A model generated the notes under the pieces. The model saw only the letters and a program-made list of their open reading frames with translations, was not told the DNA's origin and ran no database searches. This document shows, piece after piece, positions 21,825-35,569 of a stretch of 35,569 bases of DNA. The position numbers were made by a program, and so were the translations under genes. The stretch comes from Candidatus Kapaibacterium sp. (GTDB taxonomy: Bacteria; Bacteroidota; Ignavibacteria; Kapaibacteriales; Kapaibacteriaceae), in NCBI GenBank assembly GCA_026390655.1, contig JAPLFN010000059.1, positions 26,395-61,963 on the forward strand. The letters are read 5' to 3'. Position 1 is the first letter of the stretch; every line of letters begins with the position of its first letter.

Positions 21825-22687
21825 AACGCCCCGTCCGAATCATCACAAGCTCCCTCATGACTGGCGTCGGCCCACTTGTTGTGGCTCAACCACTCCCAGT
21901 CTCTGCGCTTCGAAACGCAGATCCATTTCTTCTCCTACATCATGCGGGACCGCAAACGTTTGACCCACAGGTAAAGGCTCATCGAATAGAACCGCATCCT
22001 CATCGTGGATTTGAGCCCGTGACATTTGTCTTTAAAGGTAGTGTGCTGCATCGTGATTCACTTGGCAATGAAGGACAGATCGGTGCCGGCGAGGTTCAAT
22101 GGATCACGAGTGGAAGCGGCATTGTCCACAGTGAAGGACCAACGCCAGAAGTTCAAGAATCTGGTGGAGAGCTCGAACTCATTCAACTGTGGGTGAATCT
22201 GCCAGCCAACAAGAAAATGATCACGCCTACCTACCAAGAACTACATCATGGCGATATCCCTCGCATACATGCTCTTGACGGAGCACTTACGCTGGATGTT
22301 GTGGCAGGTGAGTACGGTGGCGTAAGTGGTCCGGCTACAACACATAGCCCCCTGATGACAGCTATGGGTCATTTTACGAAAGGTGCTGTCGGGACCATCG
22401 CTGCTCCTCAATACGAGCAGGTGCTTCTCTATGTGCTCAATGGTTCATTGAGGATCAACGGTGAACATGTCGTTGACCGCCATCACCTTGCTGCGTTTGA
22501 CATTGCGGGTGATACAATTGACATTGAGACTCTGAGTGACGGCTCGTTGCTGTTGCTTGCTGGAGAACCTTTACGGGAGCCAATCGCAATGCATGGCCCA
22601 TTTGTGATGAACACAGATGATGAGCTTCGCACCGCCTTTCGAGATTTTGCCGGAGGCAAGATGGGAACGCTAGTGGACAACGAATGA
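21821..22687 (+). CDS. Pirin family protein
   Basis: A bicupin of the pirin family; members are metal-binding regulators or quercetin dioxygenase-like enzymes, and the role here is not known. The N-terminal cupin keeps the four metal ligands: H59 and H61 in PHPHRGFEPVTFVFKG, and H103 and E105 in SGIVHSEG. The length of 288 matches the family. The C-terminal cupin (QVLLYVLNGSLRINGEHV) lacks these ligands, as is usual. The start is coupled to deoC by an ATGA overlap. Its 3' end overlaps the convergent cargo gene by 18 bp. Confidence 0.94.
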   Translation: MKRPVRIITSSLMTGVGPLVVAQPLPVSALRNADPFLLLHHAGPQTFDPQVKAHRIEPHPHRGFEPVTFVFKGSVLHRDSLGNEGQIGAGEVQWITSGSGIVHSEGPTPEVQESGGELELIQLWVNLPANKKMITPTYQELHHGDIPRIHALDGALTLDVVAGEYGGVSGPATTHSPLMTAMGHFTKGAVGTIAAPQYEQVLLYVLNGSLRINGEHVVDRHHLAAFDIAGDTIDIETLSDGSLLLLAGEPLREPIAMHGPFVMNTDDELRTAFRDFAGGKMGTLVDNE

Positions 22688-25600
22688 TGATGCTCGATTG
22701 ACGCCGTCAATTGTTGCACGCAGGATGAACGTGCCTTGGGGCAAAGCGCTGATGTCGTATGAACATTCATGGAGTATGTTGCCGGCATGTGTATCTACGA
22801 TGCGCCCCATCACATCAATGATCTCAATCGAGATCGAATGAGAACGGTCGTTGTCTAGTCGCAGTGTCAGATGTTCATCGGCAGGAATGGGGCTTATCGC
22901 TAGCGTGCCTATCCCTGAGAATTGAACCGTGCGAATCTGACGACCCGCACATGGGTCATCAACAGTCAAAGTTCCATCGTCATATTCCACTGCCGAAACC
23001 TGATCGGTCCACAACAAGCCGGGTTCACGAACAAACAAAAGATCTGTCTTTGCAGCGTAAGACAAAAGTGTGTTTACGGGCAGAAGCGCAAGCGTGTCCG
23101 ATCCATCCCATCGGCCAACGATGTCAACAACAAACTGTTCCCCTTCTATCCTGCTGGTCCAACGTGAACGTTGGTCAGAACCCGACGCAATGCTCAGCTC
23201 ACGTGCCTTCCAGGTGACGTGTACGGTGAACTCATCGAGTAGAACACTGTCGATCTGCGGTCTCTGAATGAGCAGAACCGGCACGGTGTCTACCACACCA
23301 ATGCGAGATATGATATCAGGCATAGCGATAACGGTTCGCGCACTTGCCTCTGCTTCGAGCTGTGTTGTTAGAGAACCTAAACATGGGTCATCGATCGTCA
23401 CAACTACGCTATCACGATGAACGCCTACCTTCTGCTTGATCTCTACAAAAGCCGTCATTTGTGCATCAGGGACAAGCACGCAAGGTATTGCTGGTTCTGT
23501 CCGGAGAAGAGTGAAAGGGGCTTGTGGACCCCGGATGGCGCTAACTCGAAGATCGGCTGTGCCAGTATTGCGATAGATGGCCTGTAGCGTCTGCCGACGG
23601 CCAACAATGTTCTCCGTGTAAGCCAGTAACGGAGTGCCGTCGGACAACGCATTTACCGCGCTACCTCTGATGCGAATGACCACGCTCGTGTCACACGGCA
23701 AAAGACGAACGGTCATTACGATCTCATATGGGCCAACAGCAGCAGGCACTACGCTCACGCGAATAGTGCGTTTGCCAACGAATCGGTCGCCTCGTGCAAT
23801 ATCCGCTGTTGCTGTCCCCACTATCGAGATGTCAGAGACTTCCCACGTTGTGGTATCTGCCGACGTGAAGTCAACATCAACCTCTGCGCGTGAGTTTCTG
23901 CAGAGGATCAGGGTTGCCACATCAACAGTGGGTGATGCGGTAATCCTCGGTGCCGAAACCGGGCCATCAACGTCTACCCACAACGTATCGAGACATGCTC
24001 CATCACGAACAACAAACCCGATTCGTCCAGCCGTAGCACCTAATGATGGCAGCCATCGGATCCTGGTCTGTGTAGGTATTCCTGCAACTGTCTGGAATCT
24101 CTTCGCAGACAGGATTCGTGACGAGCCCATTTCGAGAACATCTACAACGTCTACTGCCGCACCATCGAAGAGAAAGCCAAGTGTGGTATCGCGCGAGGTG
24201 GCGGTACATACAACGATCGACGGCATTCTGATGTTCTTAGGGTTAACATCAAACGTTCGATCATTTCGACGAACAATGATGTTTGTGGACACAACCGTGT
24301 CACACGGGGTGATCGTTGCGTCAATACTGGCTGTAACAAGTGAGCCGTTCGTTGGTAGGCTCATCGCAACAGGTATGCGATAGCGCTCCCCAGGCTTGAG
24401 TAAGATTGGCGCCGGGAATGTTATAGCTACACCTGGTGAAGCCGAGGTGACCTTCGTTATCGTTGCATCGGACGCTGAATTGTTGAAGAGCCACAATGCT
24501 GTATCAACGGAATAGGTGCAGCCGAGTGCATTGAGATTGACAACCGGGAAGTCGATCTTCCAGCCATTGAGGACGTTGACAACTACCGTATCCGTTGCCA
24601 CACAGCCGAAAATGTCGGTGATTGATACTGTATATGTCTGCGTAGATGTTGCAACAAGCTGTAGATCTGTCTTCGAACTCACTACAATCCCGTTTGCTCT
24701 TTTCCATTCGATGGAAGAATACGTTCCCGTTGTTTTTGCAGTGAAGGAAATCGAGGTCCCGGGACACACAAGCGTGTCTCTTGGTGCTCGTACAGACAGG
24801 AGCGGGAATTGCCCGGTGTTCTCGGGTATGGACTGACCAAATGAACTGATTCCATCATCGCCGGGTGTTGCAAGGTATGCTTGGTTTACCGCGCTAGCCT
24901 GATTGACATTGCGTCCATTTGGTCCGGCGGTGACGGAAAACGTCAGACCACCGATAAGGTTCGCGCCGGAGAACAGGAACGATCCACCTCCACCACCTCC
25001 ACCGGGACCGTGCATTGCGCTCGTGCGCACATTGCCACCGCGTCCACCATCAGCACCAACGAACACTCCAGCAACAAGATTCCGAAGGACCAACAGAACC
25101 GTGCCCCCTGCACCACCTGCGCCGGCTCCATCGTTCTGTGCATCTGCCATAGGTCGAGTACCATTCGCAGTTATGCTTCGTGCATTACCGCCCAACGTCT
25201 GACATCTGATGATCACAATGCCACCGCCATTAGCGCCACCTGTACCAACGTTATCATTCATTTGGCCGGCACCGCCGCCGCCGCCACATCGAATGCGCGC
25301 AGTGTTGTTAACAACGGCCGGCGCGCTGACGCCACCAAGTCCGCCATTATCAAAAAACCGGCTGCAACCTTCCCATTGTGCTCCACCACGTCCGCCAGCA
25401 CCACCGTTGCCGCCCCCACCTCCACCGGAGTTGTGAGATACTCCGCCGCCACCACCGGAAAAAAGTTCTTGTCGACCAGAGACATTGCTTGCCTGTGGAT
25501 CCACATACGATTCTCCCTTCATGGCGGCCGATTGACTATTAATCCCATCGTTCGCCGTCATCGTTGAACAGGCGCCACCAGAGCGCCAGGAGGTTCCGCC

Positions 25601-26098
25601 ACGGAAACCAATGCCATCTGCGCTGATATTGGCATTGAGTCTGAGAGTGCCACGCACGTCGATCACGATCACGCCACCGATGGTACCATTCCACTGACTC
25701 CCGCTAAGTGGTTGGTTAACATCCGCATCAGCATAGACGGGTACTCTCACGATTTGAACACGGCCGTTGACATCGTAGACGTTCAAAAGCGGATGGAGGA
25801 GGTTGATCGTGTTGCCTGTGATGGAGGCTATTGTTGCAAATTCAAAAAGGCCGACTGCTTGTGTGTTATACGTGCCGCTTTGTAAAGCCCCCTTCATCTG
25901 AATGATCAGAACGAGATCTTTCGGTCTAAATGCAGTGGATGACGGCACAGTAATGTGAGACGCACAGTCTGCATTAACGATGTCTGTAACGGGCGCATAA
26001 ATGTTAACGATGCCACCAATTGAAGTTTGAGCGTGCGATGCTATTGCCGTAAAAAACACAGCAATGCTAAGCCAGAAGATGCGCCTTCGAAACTTCAT
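22670..26098 (-). CDS. Large secreted glycine-rich Ig-domain protein, probable T9SS cargo
   Basis: ATG 26098 was chosen because it opens a clean signal peptide (MKFRRRIFWLSIAVFFTAIASHAQ). The frame stays open upstream to 26218, but that part overlaps prfC. The protein has 1142 residues. Residues ~25-215 are a beta-rich N-terminal region. Residues ~216-383 are very rich in glycine (runs of five to seven Gly) with interspersed Asn, Ala and a few Cys. Residues ~420-510 form an Ig/PKD-like module beginning DTLVCPGTSISF, followed by several Ig-like modules with paired Cys. The last ~75 residues (ISPIPADEHLTLRLDN ... ISIEIIDVMGRIVDTHAG) fit a T9SS type A sorting domain. Probably a surface or matrix protein. 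Confidence 0.83.
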   Translation of the reverse strand: MKFRRRIFWLSIAVFFTAIASHAQTSIGGIVNIYAPVTDIVNADCASHITVPSSTAFRPKDLVLIIQMKGALQSGTYNTQAVGLFEFATIASITGNTINLLHPLLNVYDVNGRVQIVRVPVYADADVNQPLSGSQWNGTIGGVIVIDVRGTLRLNANISADGIGFRGGTSWRSGGACSTMTANDGINSQSAAMKGESYVDPQASNVSGRQELFSGGGGGVSHNSGGGGGGNGGAGGRGGAQWEGCSRFFDNGGLGGVSAPAVVNNTARIRCGGGGGAGQMNDNVGTGGANGGGIVIIRCQTLGGNARSITANGTRPMADAQNDGAGAGGAGGTVLLVLRNLVAGVFVGADGGRGGNVRTSAMHGPGGGGGGGSFLFSGANLIGGLTFSVTAGPNGRNVNQASAVNQAYLATPGDDGISSFGQSIPENTGQFPLLSVRAPRDTLVCPGTSISFTAKTTGTYSSIEWKRANGIVVSSKTDLQLVATSTQTYTVSITDIFGCVATDTVVVNVLNGWKIDFPVVNLNALGCTYSVDTALWLFNNSASDATITKVTSASPGVAITFPAPILLKPGERYRIPVAMSLPTNGSLVTASIDATITPCDTVVSTNIIVRRNDRTFDVNPKNIRMPSIVVCTATSRDTTLGFLFDGAAVDVVDVLEMGSSRILSAKRFQTVAGIPTQTRIRWLPSLGATAGRIGFVVRDGACLDTLWVDVDGPVSAPRITASPTVDVATLILCRNSRAEVDVDFTSADTTTWEVSDISIVGTATADIARGDRFVGKRTIRVSVVPAAVGPYEIVMTVRLLPCDTSVVIRIRGSAVNALSDGTPLLAYTENIVGRRQTLQAIYRNTGTADLRVSAIRGPQAPFTLLRTEPAIPCVLVPDAQMTAFVEIKQKVGVHRDSVVVTIDDPCLGSLTTQLEAEASARTVIAMPDIISRIGVVDTVPVLLIQRPQIDSVLLDEFTVHVTWKARELSIASGSDQRSRWTSRIEGEQFVVDIVGRWDGSDTLALLPVNTLLSYAAKTDLLFVREPGLLWTDQVSAVEYDDGTLTVDDPCAGRQIRTVQFSGIGTLAISPIPADEHLTLRLDNDRSHSISIEIIDVMGRIVDTHAGNILHECSYDISALPQGTFILRATIDGVNRASSFVVH
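22695..22713 (+). terminator. Possible terminator hairpin after the pirin gene
   Basis: On the plus strand an 8-bp stem with one G-T pair closes a three-base loop (arms 22695-22702 and 22706-22713), 8 bp past the pirin stop codon. It lies within the coding end of the convergent gene and has no T-tract, so termination is only possible. Confidence 0.25.
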
Positions 26099-26141
26099 GA
26101 GAAACGACTTCCCCAACGTGTTCTTCAACGTTACTGAATCC

Positions 26142-27710
26142 CTAGCTAACAACTGGGGGAACCTCAGAAAGTTCCAAGCCCTCGGAGCGTTGTTTAACGT
26201 AGTCGATTTCCCAATCATTCTTGAAGAGAACCACTAAACGGCCATTCTCGTCCCTCACAAGAGGGGCTGCAGTTGCTGGGCGCACCTCCGAAAGCAACCA
26301 CCGTGTTCTCGTATACGGAAGGCGTTCGAGCTTTACTTTTTCGTTGTACTCGTTCTCCATGCGCCATGCAAAGAGCTCTAGCTGTAGTTCCCCTACAACA
26401 CCAACGAGCGGAACGGGGCTTCCGTCAGCTTCGGTAAAGATCTGGATAACACCTTCTTCGCGAAGTTGGTCGATTCCTTTACGGAAAGACTTTGAGAAAG
26501 AGCCTGTAGCCGGCCAAACTTTTGAAAAGATTTCCGGGGCAAAACGAGGGAATGACGGAATAGTGGCGTTGGTCTTCTCCGTGATCGTGTCTCCAACCTG
26601 AAAAAGGCCTGGATTTGTAAGCCCGATCACGTCGCCGGGATAGGCCTCATCGATGATCTTTCGGTCGCGACCGAAAATCTCAAATGGATAGGTAAGCTTG
26701 GTTTCCCGTCCGCTACGCGGGTGGAATGCCGTCATGCCCCGCTCAAATCTACCGCTGACTATCCTCAAGAATGAGATGCGGTCGCGGTGAGACTTGTTCA
26801 TGTTCGCCTGAACCTTGTACACGAAGCCTACGAACTCCTTGCTGTTGGGTTCTACCGTGCCTGTAGACATTACAAACGGCTGAGGGCTTGGTGTGAGCGT
26901 AAGGATCGAGCGAAGAAAGTGCTCTAGTCCAAAGTTCGTGATCGCAGATCCCCAGAAAACAGGCGTACAGAGTTCATTGAGATAGGCCTCGCGATCGAAG
27001 GCCGGGATAACATGATCAACAAACTCTAGGTCCTCAAGAAGCTTGTCGTGCGCCATCTCGCCGATCGATGAGCGAAGTTCGGCCCCCCTGATATCGCCAA
27101 TACTTACCGGTGCTTTGTATCGGTTGCCAACGGTTCTCTCGAATCGATGGAACTCTTGGTCTTGACGATCGAAGATCCCTTTAAAGTCCGGACCATCACC
27201 GATTGGCCATGTTCGCGGAATAGCAGTAATCCCAAGAACCTGTTCAACTTCGTCCAGTAGCTCCAACGGTGCTCGCGCCGGACGATCCATCTTGTTCATA
27301 AATGTGACGATGGGGATGCCACGATCACGGCAGACCTTAAACAGCTTGATTGTCTGCTCTTGAATACCTCGGCCTGCATCGAGAAGCATGATGGCTGAGT
27401 CTACAGCCATCAGCGTACGGTACGTGTCTTCTGAAAAGTCTTGGTGGCCGGGAGTGTCGAGGATGTTGAGGAGAAGTCCGTCATACTCAACACGCATTGC
27501 GCTCGAAGAAACAGAGATACCCCTCTGCTGCTCGATCTCCATCCAGTCCGAGGTTGTGGACGTATGCTTACCGCCCGTAACGGCGCCAGCCCTATGGATG
27601 GCGCCCGAGTACAGGAGGAGTTTTTCGGTAAGAGTAGTCTTCCCCGCGTCGGGGTGACTAATGATGGCGACGGTTCTTCGTCGCCCGATTTCTGTTGCGA
27701 GGTCGGCCAT
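26142..27710 (-). CDS. prfC: Peptide chain release factor 3 (RF3)
   Basis: Translational GTPase that recycles RF1/RF2 after termination. The 522-residue length is close to E. coli RF3. Visible motifs are the P-loop SHPDAGKTT (18-26), the switch region with EIEQQRGISV, DTPGHQDFSEDTYR, and NKMDRPAR. RF3-specific sequence follows, such as the WPIGDGPDFKGIFDR segment, VFWGSAITNFGLEHFL and VVGELQLELF. I use ATG 27710 (MADLATEIGRRRTVAI); the frame is open to 27809, but that part overlaps the upstream barrel gene, whose stop is 11 bp away. No Shine-Dalgarno is visible, so reinitiation after the barrel gene is likely. Confidence 0.97.
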   Translation of the reverse strand: MADLATEIGRRRTVAIISHPDAGKTTLTEKLLLYSGAIHRAGAVTGGKHTSTTSDWMEIEQQRGISVSSSAMRVEYDGLLLNILDTPGHQDFSEDTYRTLMAVDSAIMLLDAGRGIQEQTIKLFKVCRDRGIPIVTFMNKMDRPARAPLELLDEVEQVLGITAIPRTWPIGDGPDFKGIFDRQDQEFHRFERTVGNRYKAPVSIGDIRGAELRSSIGEMAHDKLLEDLEFVDHVIPAFDREAYLNELCTPVFWGSAITNFGLEHFLRSILTLTPSPQPFVMSTGTVEPNSKEFVGFVYKVQANMNKSHRDRISFLRIVSGRFERGMTAFHPRSGRETKLTYPFEIFGRDRKIIDEAYPGDVIGLTNPGLFQVGDTITEKTNATIPSFPRFAPEIFSKVWPATGSFSKSFRKGIDQLREEGVIQIFTEADGSPVPLVGVVGELQLELFAWRMENEYNEKVKLERLPYTRTRWLLSEVRPATAAPLVRDENGRLVVLFKNDWEIDYVKQRSEGLELSEVPPVVS

Positions 27711-33575: not shown

Positions 33576-34391
33576 ATGACCACCATTGAAACGCTGGCAA
33601 GTGTACACGGCCGTACGCTCCTGCGCGACATATACCGAGAACTACGTTTCGAGCGCCAGGTGAGCGCGCTCGTGACGCTGACCACGTTGTGGCGTATCTG
33701 CACCACGGAGCGAGAGCTCATCAGGATGACTAAGCGAGATGTAGTGGTCCTCCACCCCCTCGGCCTCCTCTCCGGTACGGCTCTCTGGATGCAAGAAGTG
33801 GTAAACCGCTTCTTCTACTCGGCAGTAAACGCATTCGTCTATTTCGGCGCATCTATCCTCCTTGTTGCTGTTGGCCTTAACCGAACAAGAGTTATTGAGA
33901 CACCCGGTCTCGTAGTAGGAGGCGTGATTTTAGAAGCGCTGTTGCTTCTCCTGCTTTTTGTGGTGATGTTCTTTACTCCTCCTGAAGACCTTGAGTCTGC
34001 CTCGGCTTCAAGTGAACAGTCAGCAGCAACAGAAGAGCTGCTTCGAGAGTTGGGGGAGATCGGGCGCGACTATGCAGCGATGGCAGTCCAACTCGAAACC
34101 ATTGCCGGTACTCTGAATGACCTCGTGGAACGTCAGGACACAATGATCGTCCAAATGCGAGACGGTGTGGAAGCCGCGGTTAGCGCTGTTGCGCCAAATC
34201 CAAACCTTCTACATGCAATGCGAGATACCACCACATCACTTGAAAACTTTACCGGTAGTGTAGATGCCTTGGGTGAGCGATTAAAGGCTGTTGAGCAACA
34301 AGAAGTTGCGCGCCTCGTTCGAAGTGAACTGGAAAGAATACTCTCTCGCCATATACTGGATCGCGATGAACGATCGTCATCGGCCTCGTAG
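33576..34391 (+). CDS. Two-TM coiled-coil membrane protein, divergent GldL/PorL candidate
   Basis: A 271-residue protein from ATG 33576. The frame is open back to 33402, but the added part overlaps the divergent cargo gene and is very basic. Residues 1-~75 are a hydrophilic N-terminal extension. TM1 is ~80-101 and TM2 ~110-133. TM2 contains a buried glutamate (E120 in GGVILEALLLLLL) and ends FFTPPEDLE, which parallels the GldL pattern of a TM2 Glu followed by a Pro-Pro exit. Residues ~145-260 are a long heptad-rich coiled coil, also as in GldL. GldL and GldM together form the proton-driven inner-membrane motor of T9SS and gliding. The next gene overlaps by 26 bp and has a GldM-like N-terminus. 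The N-terminal extension is unusual for GldL, and overall identity looks low, so a different two-TM coiled-coil protein is possible. Confidence 0.6.
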   Translation: MTTIETLASVHGRTLLRDIYRELRFERQVSALVTLTTLWRICTTERELIRMTKRDVVVLHPLGLLSGTALWMQEVVNRFFYSAVNAFVYFGASILLVAVGLNRTRVIETPGLVVGGVILEALLLLLLFVVMFFTPPEDLESASASSEQSAATEELLRELGEIGRDYAAMAVQLETIAGTLNDLVERQDTMIVQMRDGVEAAVSAVAPNPNLLHAMRDTTTSLENFTGSVDALGERLKAVEQQEVARLVRSELERILSRHILDRDERSSSAS

Positions 34392-35569
34392 GCGAGTAGA
34401 GATCTACTTCGTGCTCTACTTGGTTGCGCTCGTCCTGCTGATGCCGGACAGGCTTGATCAGTTAGGGGTAAAAAGCGAGGCAGCCTCTCTTGCACATGCG
34501 CGACTTGAGTTCACTCCCGACAGAATGAGGTTGCTCTGCAGGCTCACGCGAGATAGTGTTGGGGGAGCTCGTGTGACAACGCTTGACTCGTTCAATGTTA
34601 TTCGGTACAGCGGAACCGTAACAGATATGCGCGTAAGCGCCCGAATCGAAGAAGTGGAGTCCGGCCAGATTTTAACGATTGAGCCGGGCGAGTCGGCAAC
34701 GCCGATGTTTGCTCTTGAGCATCAACCGCAACGCAATGCCGTAGTGTTTCATTGGCGTCCGGATCTGGCAAATGCGATCACGCGAACCTTCCGCGTAACT
34801 ATCCTCGGAAGCGGTTCTCCGGGCGTCCATTCCGGAGCAAACAGTGCGGACATCGATGAACTCCCGGCCGGCCTCCGTATGACGGGGTCTACCCAATTCG
34901 TGCTCACTACCATGGTTGAGAATGAGAATCCCGCCACGATCATCACGCTGCCCGGAGGTAGAGACACGGTAGTTGTTCGCGACACATCAGGGGGAAGCAA
35001 CACGATTGCTTCGCTCGGAGAGTTCTGGATAGATGCTGCGAGAGATAAGATCTCAACGATATCAACGCGTGAATGGACGAATCGTATCAGCGTTGGTGGT
35101 GCAGACCCGGCCCGTGATCTCGTTGGCCTTCCTCGGATTAGAGTGATCGGTGAGAGCATCGGTGATGTTCAACGCTACACGGACCAACGTACGATCATTG
35201 TTAAGGGGCGTGCACCACGCAGCGGAACAATCACGGTGGAGGTTTCGGCTCAACGACGAGATGGGCAAACTCGTACGGTTACATTTACGGTCAGCGCTCA
35301 GCCCCTTGCAGTAGTAGACGTGCCGGACGTGATGTATCCGAATATTGAATACACAGTAGATCCGAAGTTGCCATTGGTAGAGAATTCGCGTGCCGTGATT
35401 AAGGACGGGGAGCGTGAGATTGCATCAGCCAGTGAAGGCGTCCTACGCATCAAGCCACAGATGCGAGATACAGGACGAACCTTGAACTTCGAGCGAATTG
35501 TTGACGGAAGTAGAGAAGGATCCGTCCAGCAAATTCAAGTACGAAGCTATTCCGTGCCTGTGATTCGCG
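34366..35569 (+). CDS. One-TM periplasmic protein, divergent GldM/PorM candidate (3'-truncated)
   Basis: Open from ATG 34366 to the window end (401 codons, no stop), overlapping the preceding gene by 26 bp. The N-terminus has an arginine cluster followed by one TM helix (RPRRRVEIYFVLYLVALVLL, residues 6-25). This parallels the GldM start (SPRQKMINLMYLV...), where an Arg at the head of the helix pairs with the TM2 Glu of GldL. The remainder is predicted periplasmic and beta-rich, with Ig-like strand patterns (GTITVEVSAQRRDGQTRTVTFTV) and a segment VPDVMYPNIEYTVDP reminiscent of the GldM YxGxxNP strand. A long helical first periplasmic domain, present in characterised GldM, is not evident. The assignment rests on topology, gene order and the TM motif. 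Confidence 0.6.
   Translation, partial: MNDRHRPRRRVEIYFVLYLVALVLLMPDRLDQLGVKSEAASLAHARLEFTPDRMRLLCRLTRDSVGGARVTTLDSFNVIRYSGTVTDMRVSARIEEVESGQILTIEPGESATPMFALEHQPQRNAVVFHWRPDLANAITRTFRVTILGSGSPGVHSGANSADIDELPAGLRMTGSTQFVLTTMVENENPATIITLPGGRDTVVVRDTSGGSNTIASLGEFWIDAARDKISTISTREWTNRISVGGADPARDLVGLPRIRVIGESIGDVQRYTDQRTIIVKGRAPRSGTITVEVSAQRRDGQTRTVTFTVSAQPLAVVDVPDVMYPNIEYTVDPKLPLVENSRAVIKDGEREIASASEGVLRIKPQMRDTGRTLNFERIVDGSREGSVQQIQVRSYSVPVIR

Follow-up and report, generated by a model that had tools for sequence, protein, structure and literature searches.

A divergent GldL/GldM-like gene pair as the likely type IX secretion motor of a Kapaibacteriales lineage

What drives type IX secretion in bacteria that retain the translocon of the type IX secretion system (T9SS) while curated models of its motor score nothing above their cut-offs? 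The question is raised by two overlapping genes, here called A and B, at the end of a 35,569-nucleotide stretch of DNA (the window) from Candidatus Kapaibacterium sp. (assembly GCA_026390655.1, contig JAPLFN010000059.1, positions 26,395 to 61,963 of the forward strand). A first-pass annotation made from the sequence alone had proposed a T9SS motor of the GldL/GldM type that has diverged so far that it is not easily annotated. Both parts of that proposal have gained support: profile comparisons link A to GldL in both directions and B, more weakly but collinearly over domains D2–D4, to GldM, while the curated GldL and GldM models match neither protein. Because the profiles match and the curated models do not, A and B are called homologous to GldLM here but are not filed inside the GldL and GldM families. 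Most likely the lineage uses this pair as its T9SS motor, one that shares ancestry and mode of action with GldLM while falling outside the curated families; that the pair drives secretion is suggested by co-occurrence and gene neighbourhood.

Secretion genes and the pair across the order

Order, class, phylum and families f1–f45 are used here as kinship terms assigned by the genome collection searched; in the NCBI taxonomy, Kapaibacterium belongs to Bacteroidota, class Eximiradiia. Of 100 class genomes, 99, among them the one carrying the window, have a match above cut-off to the outer-membrane protein SprA (TIGR04189), and the single exception is 68% complete. Across 80 phylum genomes, curated GldK, GldL and GldN models exceed their cut-offs in one shared set of 18, which serves as the positive control for the GldN model, and in none of 20 genomes of the class. 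The translocon is therefore present in the class without the known motor and ring. GldK matches below the cut-off do occur in several class genomes, the window's own among them (best E 2.5e-30), but they are confined to the FGE half of that model, and none was taken for GldK. In its own genome, the GldL model TIGR03513 finds nothing above its cut-off of 68.3 bits (best 11.1 bits, at another place), nor does the GldM model TIGR03517, which was searched in this genome only. Of the further T9SS genes whose presence had been in question, sprA is thus found above cut-off and gldK and gldN are not, and no second gldLM copy rises above cut-off in this genome. In sum, the pair is missed by family-model searches, which find no canonical pair at another site either, and is matched by profile–profile comparison.

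Gene A, in contrast, is matched at E ≤ 0.001 in every one of the 60 order genomes, in 55 of them at E < 1e-20, so the observation is not a matter of chance. The remaining five genomes form one genus with weak A matches; in at least two, judging by frame length, the match is a paralog. Among 67 named loci, 63 were examined, the fragments L128, L130, L132 and L133 being left out. In 54 of the 63, the start of B falls inside the end of A or shortly behind it; one further locus has a B that starts at the end of a contig, and another a truncated A.

Protein A and its kinship with GldL

Gene A (ATG at 33576, stop codon ending at 34391) had been described as encoding two transmembrane (TM) helices and a long coiled coil, and both the hydrophobicity and an AlphaFold2 model (46 sequences; mean predicted local distance difference test score, pLDDT, 82.2; predicted template modelling score, pTM, 0.44) agree. 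Helices span residues 10–26, 31–43, 63–103, 110–132, 136–144, 148–204 and 209–268. The third runs unbroken through TM1, whose limits (about 83–103) were assigned by hydrophobicity like those of TM2 (110–132), and the last helices, to residue 268, are read as the predicted coiled coil. Invariant in all 46 A proteins are E74, R78, Y89, G91, A92, E120, L124, F128, M131 and P135, and R103 is an Arg in 43. E120 is the glutamate that had been noticed in the middle of TM2; it recurs in all 72 hairpins compared (60 from A, 7 from class relatives and 5 from the paralog C described below). The “Pro-Pro exit” from this helix survives by half: P135 is invariant, while position 136 is Pro in merely 16 of 46. 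The N-terminal extension of about 75 residues, noted as atypical for GldL, is real and conserved, with six invariant residues (G12, R13, L62, G63, E74 and R78). The M1 column is likewise invariant in all 31 aligned A proteins, the window's included, although the start codons in this alignment were chosen by script near the match, which bears on that invariance. The alignment holds 28 of 30 A proteins (the mis-stranded L019 and L028, which has no B, were dropped) and three from fetched regions.

Canonical reference sets came from the 18 phylum genomes (18 GldL, 18 GldM, 17 GldK and 17 GldN), and the deeper sets for profile comparison contained 60 of 63 A (length 255–280) and 51 of 56 B. With hhalign, A aligns to canonical GldL at E 2.3e-6, or 1.6e-6 with the deeper sets (E values for one comparison), placing TM1 on TM1 and E120 on the TM2 glutamate of GldL. 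Decoys score far behind: reversed GldL 0.0075, ExbB 0.19, reversed ExbB 0.37, GldK 0.57 and GldN 0.65. Since a coiled coil can inflate such scores, a hidden Markov model (HMM) was built from the TM hairpin alone (72 sequences). Among 539 proteins it ranks 27 family members first and then, on ranks 28–44, nothing but canonical GldL (E 0.0019–0.49), the 18th following at rank 53. With an HMM of A hairpins alone, GldL takes 14 of the top 18 places among non-family proteins; since the 18 GldL are related to one another, hypergeometric values for such rankings serve as description only. In the reciprocal search of 650 entries, some repeated, ranks 19–58 of the GldL HMM are all A, class relatives or one C, at E 6e-6 to 0.56 with no outsider between. 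A sequence search of the PDB with A returns GldL (7sax_C) second of 78 at E 4.8e-4, mostly through the coiled coil; the hairpin and its glutamate are aligned too, as the weaker of two stretches (8.4 bits). Foldseek places four GldL/PorL chains (7sax, 7sat) among the best 50 of 64 matches, at a root-mean-square deviation of 2.4–5.4 Å and a weak E of 3–8. Taken at the level of sequence, these comparisons argue with good certainty that A is homologous to GldL.

Could the resemblance be accidental, A and B being an unrelated membrane protein and a multi-Ig protein in which a TM hairpin and a coiled coil have converged on GldLM by chance? Coiled coils do inflate scores, the top PDB match is a designed coiled coil, most of the others are coiled coils as well, and even a B-cell receptor TM segment appears (E 0.78). 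Such an accident is nonetheless very improbable, as hairpin-only HMMs still rank GldL first once the coiled coil is gone, and the two genes match two partners in the same order, B doing so collinearly. Slimmer still is the chance that the two genes form a MotAB/ExbBD/TolQR-type pair. They have the same general topology, a multi-TM ring protein with a single-TM periplasmic partner, but hhalign gives E 0.19 for A against ExbB and 0.2 for B against ExbD, B carries no Asp inside its TM helix, and the one MotA_ExbB match in the genome lies apart from the pair, on contig C23. A MotA/ExbB identity was rejected on these grounds.

Protein B and its kinship with GldM

Gene B (ATG at 34366) overlaps gene A by 26 nucleotides, and its protein begins MNDRHRPRRR before a single TM helix. 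It is incomplete because the contig (C33 in the collection; the genome comprises 2.63 Mb in 131 contigs) stops at the last base of the window: 401 residues are present against 493–494 in the nearest relatives, so that about 90 are missing. Its architecture was therefore read from a model of a full-length homolog (L070, 493 residues; pLDDT 85.3, pTM 0.52), in which the TM helix is followed by four mainly beta periplasmic domains at about 45–186, 220–311, 320–391 and 398–492, with borders taken by eye from the DSSP string and low confidence at 27–38, 156–163 and 188–213. Together with the reading frames, this model confirms the overlap, Arg-rich head, single TM helix and beta-rich periplasmic part set down in the first-pass annotation. 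Around the membrane entrance, Y14, F15, L17 and Y18 are invariant in all 47 B proteins and position 12 is acidic in every one; a basic residue occupies position 8 in all but one of the 47, in a register that, by eye, is off by one or two relative to the GldM Arg.

Against GldM, hhalign aligns B at E 9.3e-4, matching profile positions 246–424 to 247–416 collinearly. With seven B relatives from f13, f34 and f35 added, the value improves to 7.2e-5, with positions 241–416 again collinear with 249–416, and decoys reach 0.085 or worse. The domain description in PMC5790014 sets the GldM borders at 32–232 for D1 (helices 1–5), 233–320 for D2, 321–405 for D3 and 406–513 for D4, and the aligned B positions fall on D2, D3 and the start of D4. 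The match stands above the decoys yet short of certainty, and homology of B to GldM is accordingly proposed, from its profile, with moderate certainty. The first periplasmic domain of B is not GldM D1, because it is beta in the model where D1 is helical.

That difference is the first of several observations that weigh against the proposed kinship. The B HMM reaches GldM at E 0.044 and worse, and the GldM HMM reaches B at a best E of 7e-4, mixed with A and GldL proteins. Foldseek with B returns generic immunoglobulin/fibronectin (Ig/Fn) tandems, with no GldM among the best 50 of 1974 matches, a search that is uninformative because B is a flexible multidomain protein. In Pfam and NCBIfam the window's B meets no GldM family, with chance-level matches alone, and none of 47 B proteins scanned against the GldM models gives a match; as a control, all four Pfam models, GldM_1st to 4th, match one canonical GldM. 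The same databases give the window's A no GldL family at E ≤ 10, again with chance-level matches alone, and a scan of 46 A proteins leaves GldL outside the 25 most frequent families of 76 and of 137; here the control is Pfam GldL_N, which matches two canonical GldL. An HMM of 12 more distant hairpins finds GldL in 8 of the top 18 places, with ExbB fourth, and the paralog C alone gives no clear GldL match (E 0.034, against 0.062 for ExbB). One class genome, G068, carries a sub-threshold match to GldL (E 2.4e-4) that lies elsewhere. Finally, B was not found by motif or tblastn in the fetched flanks of A at 7 of the 63 loci (L091, L096, L097, L116, L117, L118 and L124).

Neighbourhood, relatives and comparison with known systems

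Granting that A and B form a GldLM-like motor, which machine does it serve? Within the window, the first-pass annotation had placed the pair beside T9SS cargo genes, a placement that holds weakly. An AgmC-like protein (22670–26218, minus strand) has an N-terminal domain scoring 211 bits, below the 275 cut-off, and a T9SS type A sorting tail that narrowly passes (24.1 bits, cut-off 23). The 1654-residue protein adjoining it has no match to such a tail at E ≤ 0.001, its C-terminus looking tail-like by eye. Elsewhere in the order, in genome G027, genes for an LptG-like permease, A, B, C and a PorU-like protein are contiguous, and the C gene lies 21–114 base pairs before a PorU-like gene in all five order genomes fetched (G000, G014, G017, G024 and G027). 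PorU models match two of these five neighbours, below their cut-offs, and the others were recognised by blastp to the one in the window's own genome. C-like genes in class families f35 and f39 (L204, L197 and L198) do not lie beside a PorU-like gene.

The pair might instead be a 5:2 motor of the GldLM kind for another trans-envelope process, be it gliding, outer-membrane energisation or envelope maintenance. Most A-B loci read in the order are not beside T9SS genes, G027 being the only one of these regions that has the pair there. In the class, A goes undetected in many genomes that have SprA: relatives turn up with the class profile A4 in just 46 of 100 genomes against 99 for SprA, and SprA therefore does not require a detectable pair. 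In f12 and f13, moreover, A and B relatives precede two genes, X and Y, whose products have C-termini that look barrel-like by eye, so at least some such motors may serve another machine, and one genome, G111, carries three A-B loci. We nevertheless regard this alternative as unlikely for the order, where A occurs in every genome searched of an SprA-positive group lacking canonical GldL above cut-off, where A, B, C and PorU are contiguous in G027, and where the closest characterised homolog found is a T9SS motor. A T9SS motor therefore remains the preferred assignment of A and B.

If the motor works as GldLM does, a pentamer of A would encircle the TM helices of a B dimer (5:2); protons would pass through this ring by way of E120 in TM2; their passage would turn or tilt B; and the four B domains would relay that movement through the periplasm to the SprA machinery of the outer membrane. 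The role proposed for E120 draws on the Flavobacterium johnsoniae GldL mutant E49A, in which, according to the mutant data in PMC8986121, SprB secretion is abolished. To judge from topology, the N-terminal extension of A probably encloses the foot of the ring on the cytoplasmic side, as an additional collar or anchor. Of this picture, the data themselves show the kinship of the A hairpin with GldL, the invariant glutamate, the collinear likeness of B to GldM D2–D4, the gene order, and occurrence throughout an SprA-bearing order; the 5:2 ratio, the proton flow, the rotation and the link to the T9SS we infer.

Two paralogs share the hairpin of A. Paralog C is a protein of about 450 residues with four or five hydrophobic segments and a GldL-type hairpin with its Glu; the two C proteins scanned show no family above cut-off. 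Paralog D (343–355 residues) has four hydrophobic segments and the same hairpin as A, and is flanked, by eye, by dnaK-like and AAA-type ATPase genes. In f34, the order along a single strand is A-B-A-B, with two A-like and two B-like genes (L195, 151–4980; L200, 5657–10479), an arrangement that suggests duplicated motors. Families f12 and f13 carry A-B or A-B1-B2, then X (about 500 residues) and Y (about 460 residues), both unannotated, with C-termini that by eye look like outer-membrane barrels. The X-Y clusters are clear in L190, L191, L194 and L199, repeated in L190 and L191, and doubtful in L192 and L193, while L203 has X alone; the three A-B loci of G111 are L192–L194. As equivalents of GldN and GldK, X and Y found no support: the best E is 0.016, in signal-peptide regions, and neither has a Pfam or NCBIfam family at a meaningful score. 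The Y entry of f12b2, in fact an X, and a doubtful X entry of f13a were left out of this profile comparison. B1 of f12 and f13 matches B over 14 TM columns only (E 8e-5 and 2.6e-5) and does not match GldM (0.16), and B2 matches neither B (0.13 or worse) nor GldM (0.047); because of these results, calling B1 and B2 a “split GldM” draws on gene order and size alone.

These relatives invite a wider scenario, which we put forward tentatively. The class may keep the T9SS translocon and run it on a separate, old branch of GldLM, with a shaft whose first domain is beta and with a GldKN ring that is either different or missing; proteins with the GldL hairpin would have radiated, MotA-like four-TM forms (C and D) among them. 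On this view, glutamate-driven motors would make up a wider family with GldLM as one of its twigs, and parts of that family possibly drive machines other than the T9SS (the A-B1-B2-X-Y clusters).

A literature search covering open-licence PMC papers found none describing this pair. According to PMC11705866, the T9SS proteins of Melioribacter and Ignavibacterium are limited to PorV, SprA and Plug; NCBI places these genera in Ignavibacteriota and Kapaibacterium in Bacteroidota, and they may fall outside the class sampled. A review of 5:2 motors sees no clear sequence homology between GldLM and the rest (PMC9389320), and a survey with GldK–N and other models counts a T9SS in 60 of 97 Bacteroidetes genomes and in no other clade (PMC4793230). 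Where an SprA-positive order lacks the standard motor genes and has a divergent motor instead, surveys relying on current models can miss it. The A-B pair turns the missing motor into a problem that can be put to the test, and it supplies an independent set of sequences for judging which motor residues matter.

Table 1. Features of genes A and B in the window, and positions of paralogs C and D within their own loci
Feature	Location	Positions	Strand	Basis
Gene A, GldL-like membrane protein, 271 residues	window	33576..34391	+	open reading frame, translation, alignment, model, profile match to GldL
Gene A N-terminal extension, residues 1–82, predicted cytoplasmic	window	33576..33821	+	conserved across the order; not in canonical GldL
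Gene A TM1, about residues 83–103; Y89-x-G-A motif, R103 at end	window	33822..33884	+	model helix 63–103, span by hydrophobicity
Gene A TM2, residues 110–132	window	33903..33971	+	AlphaFold2 model
Gene A E120 codon, mid-TM2	window	33933..33935	+	invariance; aligned with GldL TM2 glutamate
Gene B, GldM-like, 401 residues present of about 493	window	34366..35569	+	open reading frame; runs off contig end
Gene B single TM helix, about residues 12–27; Arg-rich head before, E12 at entrance	window	34399..34446	+	model helix 13–24, span extended by hydrophobicity
Gene B first periplasmic domain, about residues 45–186, mainly beta	window	34498..34923	+	model; unlike helical GldM D1
Gene B residues 230–401, collinear with GldM D2, D3 and start of D4	window	35053..35568	+	hhalign
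Paralog C	L042 (own genome, contig C118)	2463–3818
Paralog C	L044	11642–12955
Paralog C	L206	7466–8809
Paralog C	L207	5301–6824
Paralog C	L208	7940–9286
Paralog D	L043 (own genome, contig C80)	4042–5109
Paralog D	L150	811–1842

How, then, does the pair compare with the systems it recalls? With MotA/TolQ/ExbB and MotB/TolR/ExbD it shares the plan of a ring protein and a single-TM partner, but neither profile similarity nor the TM Asp of the partner. The comparison of B with GldM/PorM (TIGR03517, PF12081, PF21601, PF21602, PF12080) is closer. No curated model matches any of the 47 B proteins, the entrance of the TM helix is acidic (position 12), and the first periplasmic domain is beta in place of a helical bundle; yet B has the short Arg-containing head, the one TM helix and the four periplasmic domains, of which those corresponding to D2–D4 are collinear in the profile alignment. 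Closest is the comparison of A with GldL/PorL (TIGR03513, PF22827). Here, too, the window's protein has no curated-model match; about 82 residues precede TM1, which in canonical GldL lies close to the N-terminus; TM2 is about one turn longer past the Glu, seen as a gap in the alignment; and the gene stands outside any gldKLMN operon, with no GldK or GldN above cut-off in its own genome or in the class sample. A has in common with GldL a two-TM hairpin with a GAA-type TM1, a glutamate in mid-TM2 and a Pro exit, a predicted cytoplasmic coiled coil, and a gene directly upstream of that for the shaft protein.

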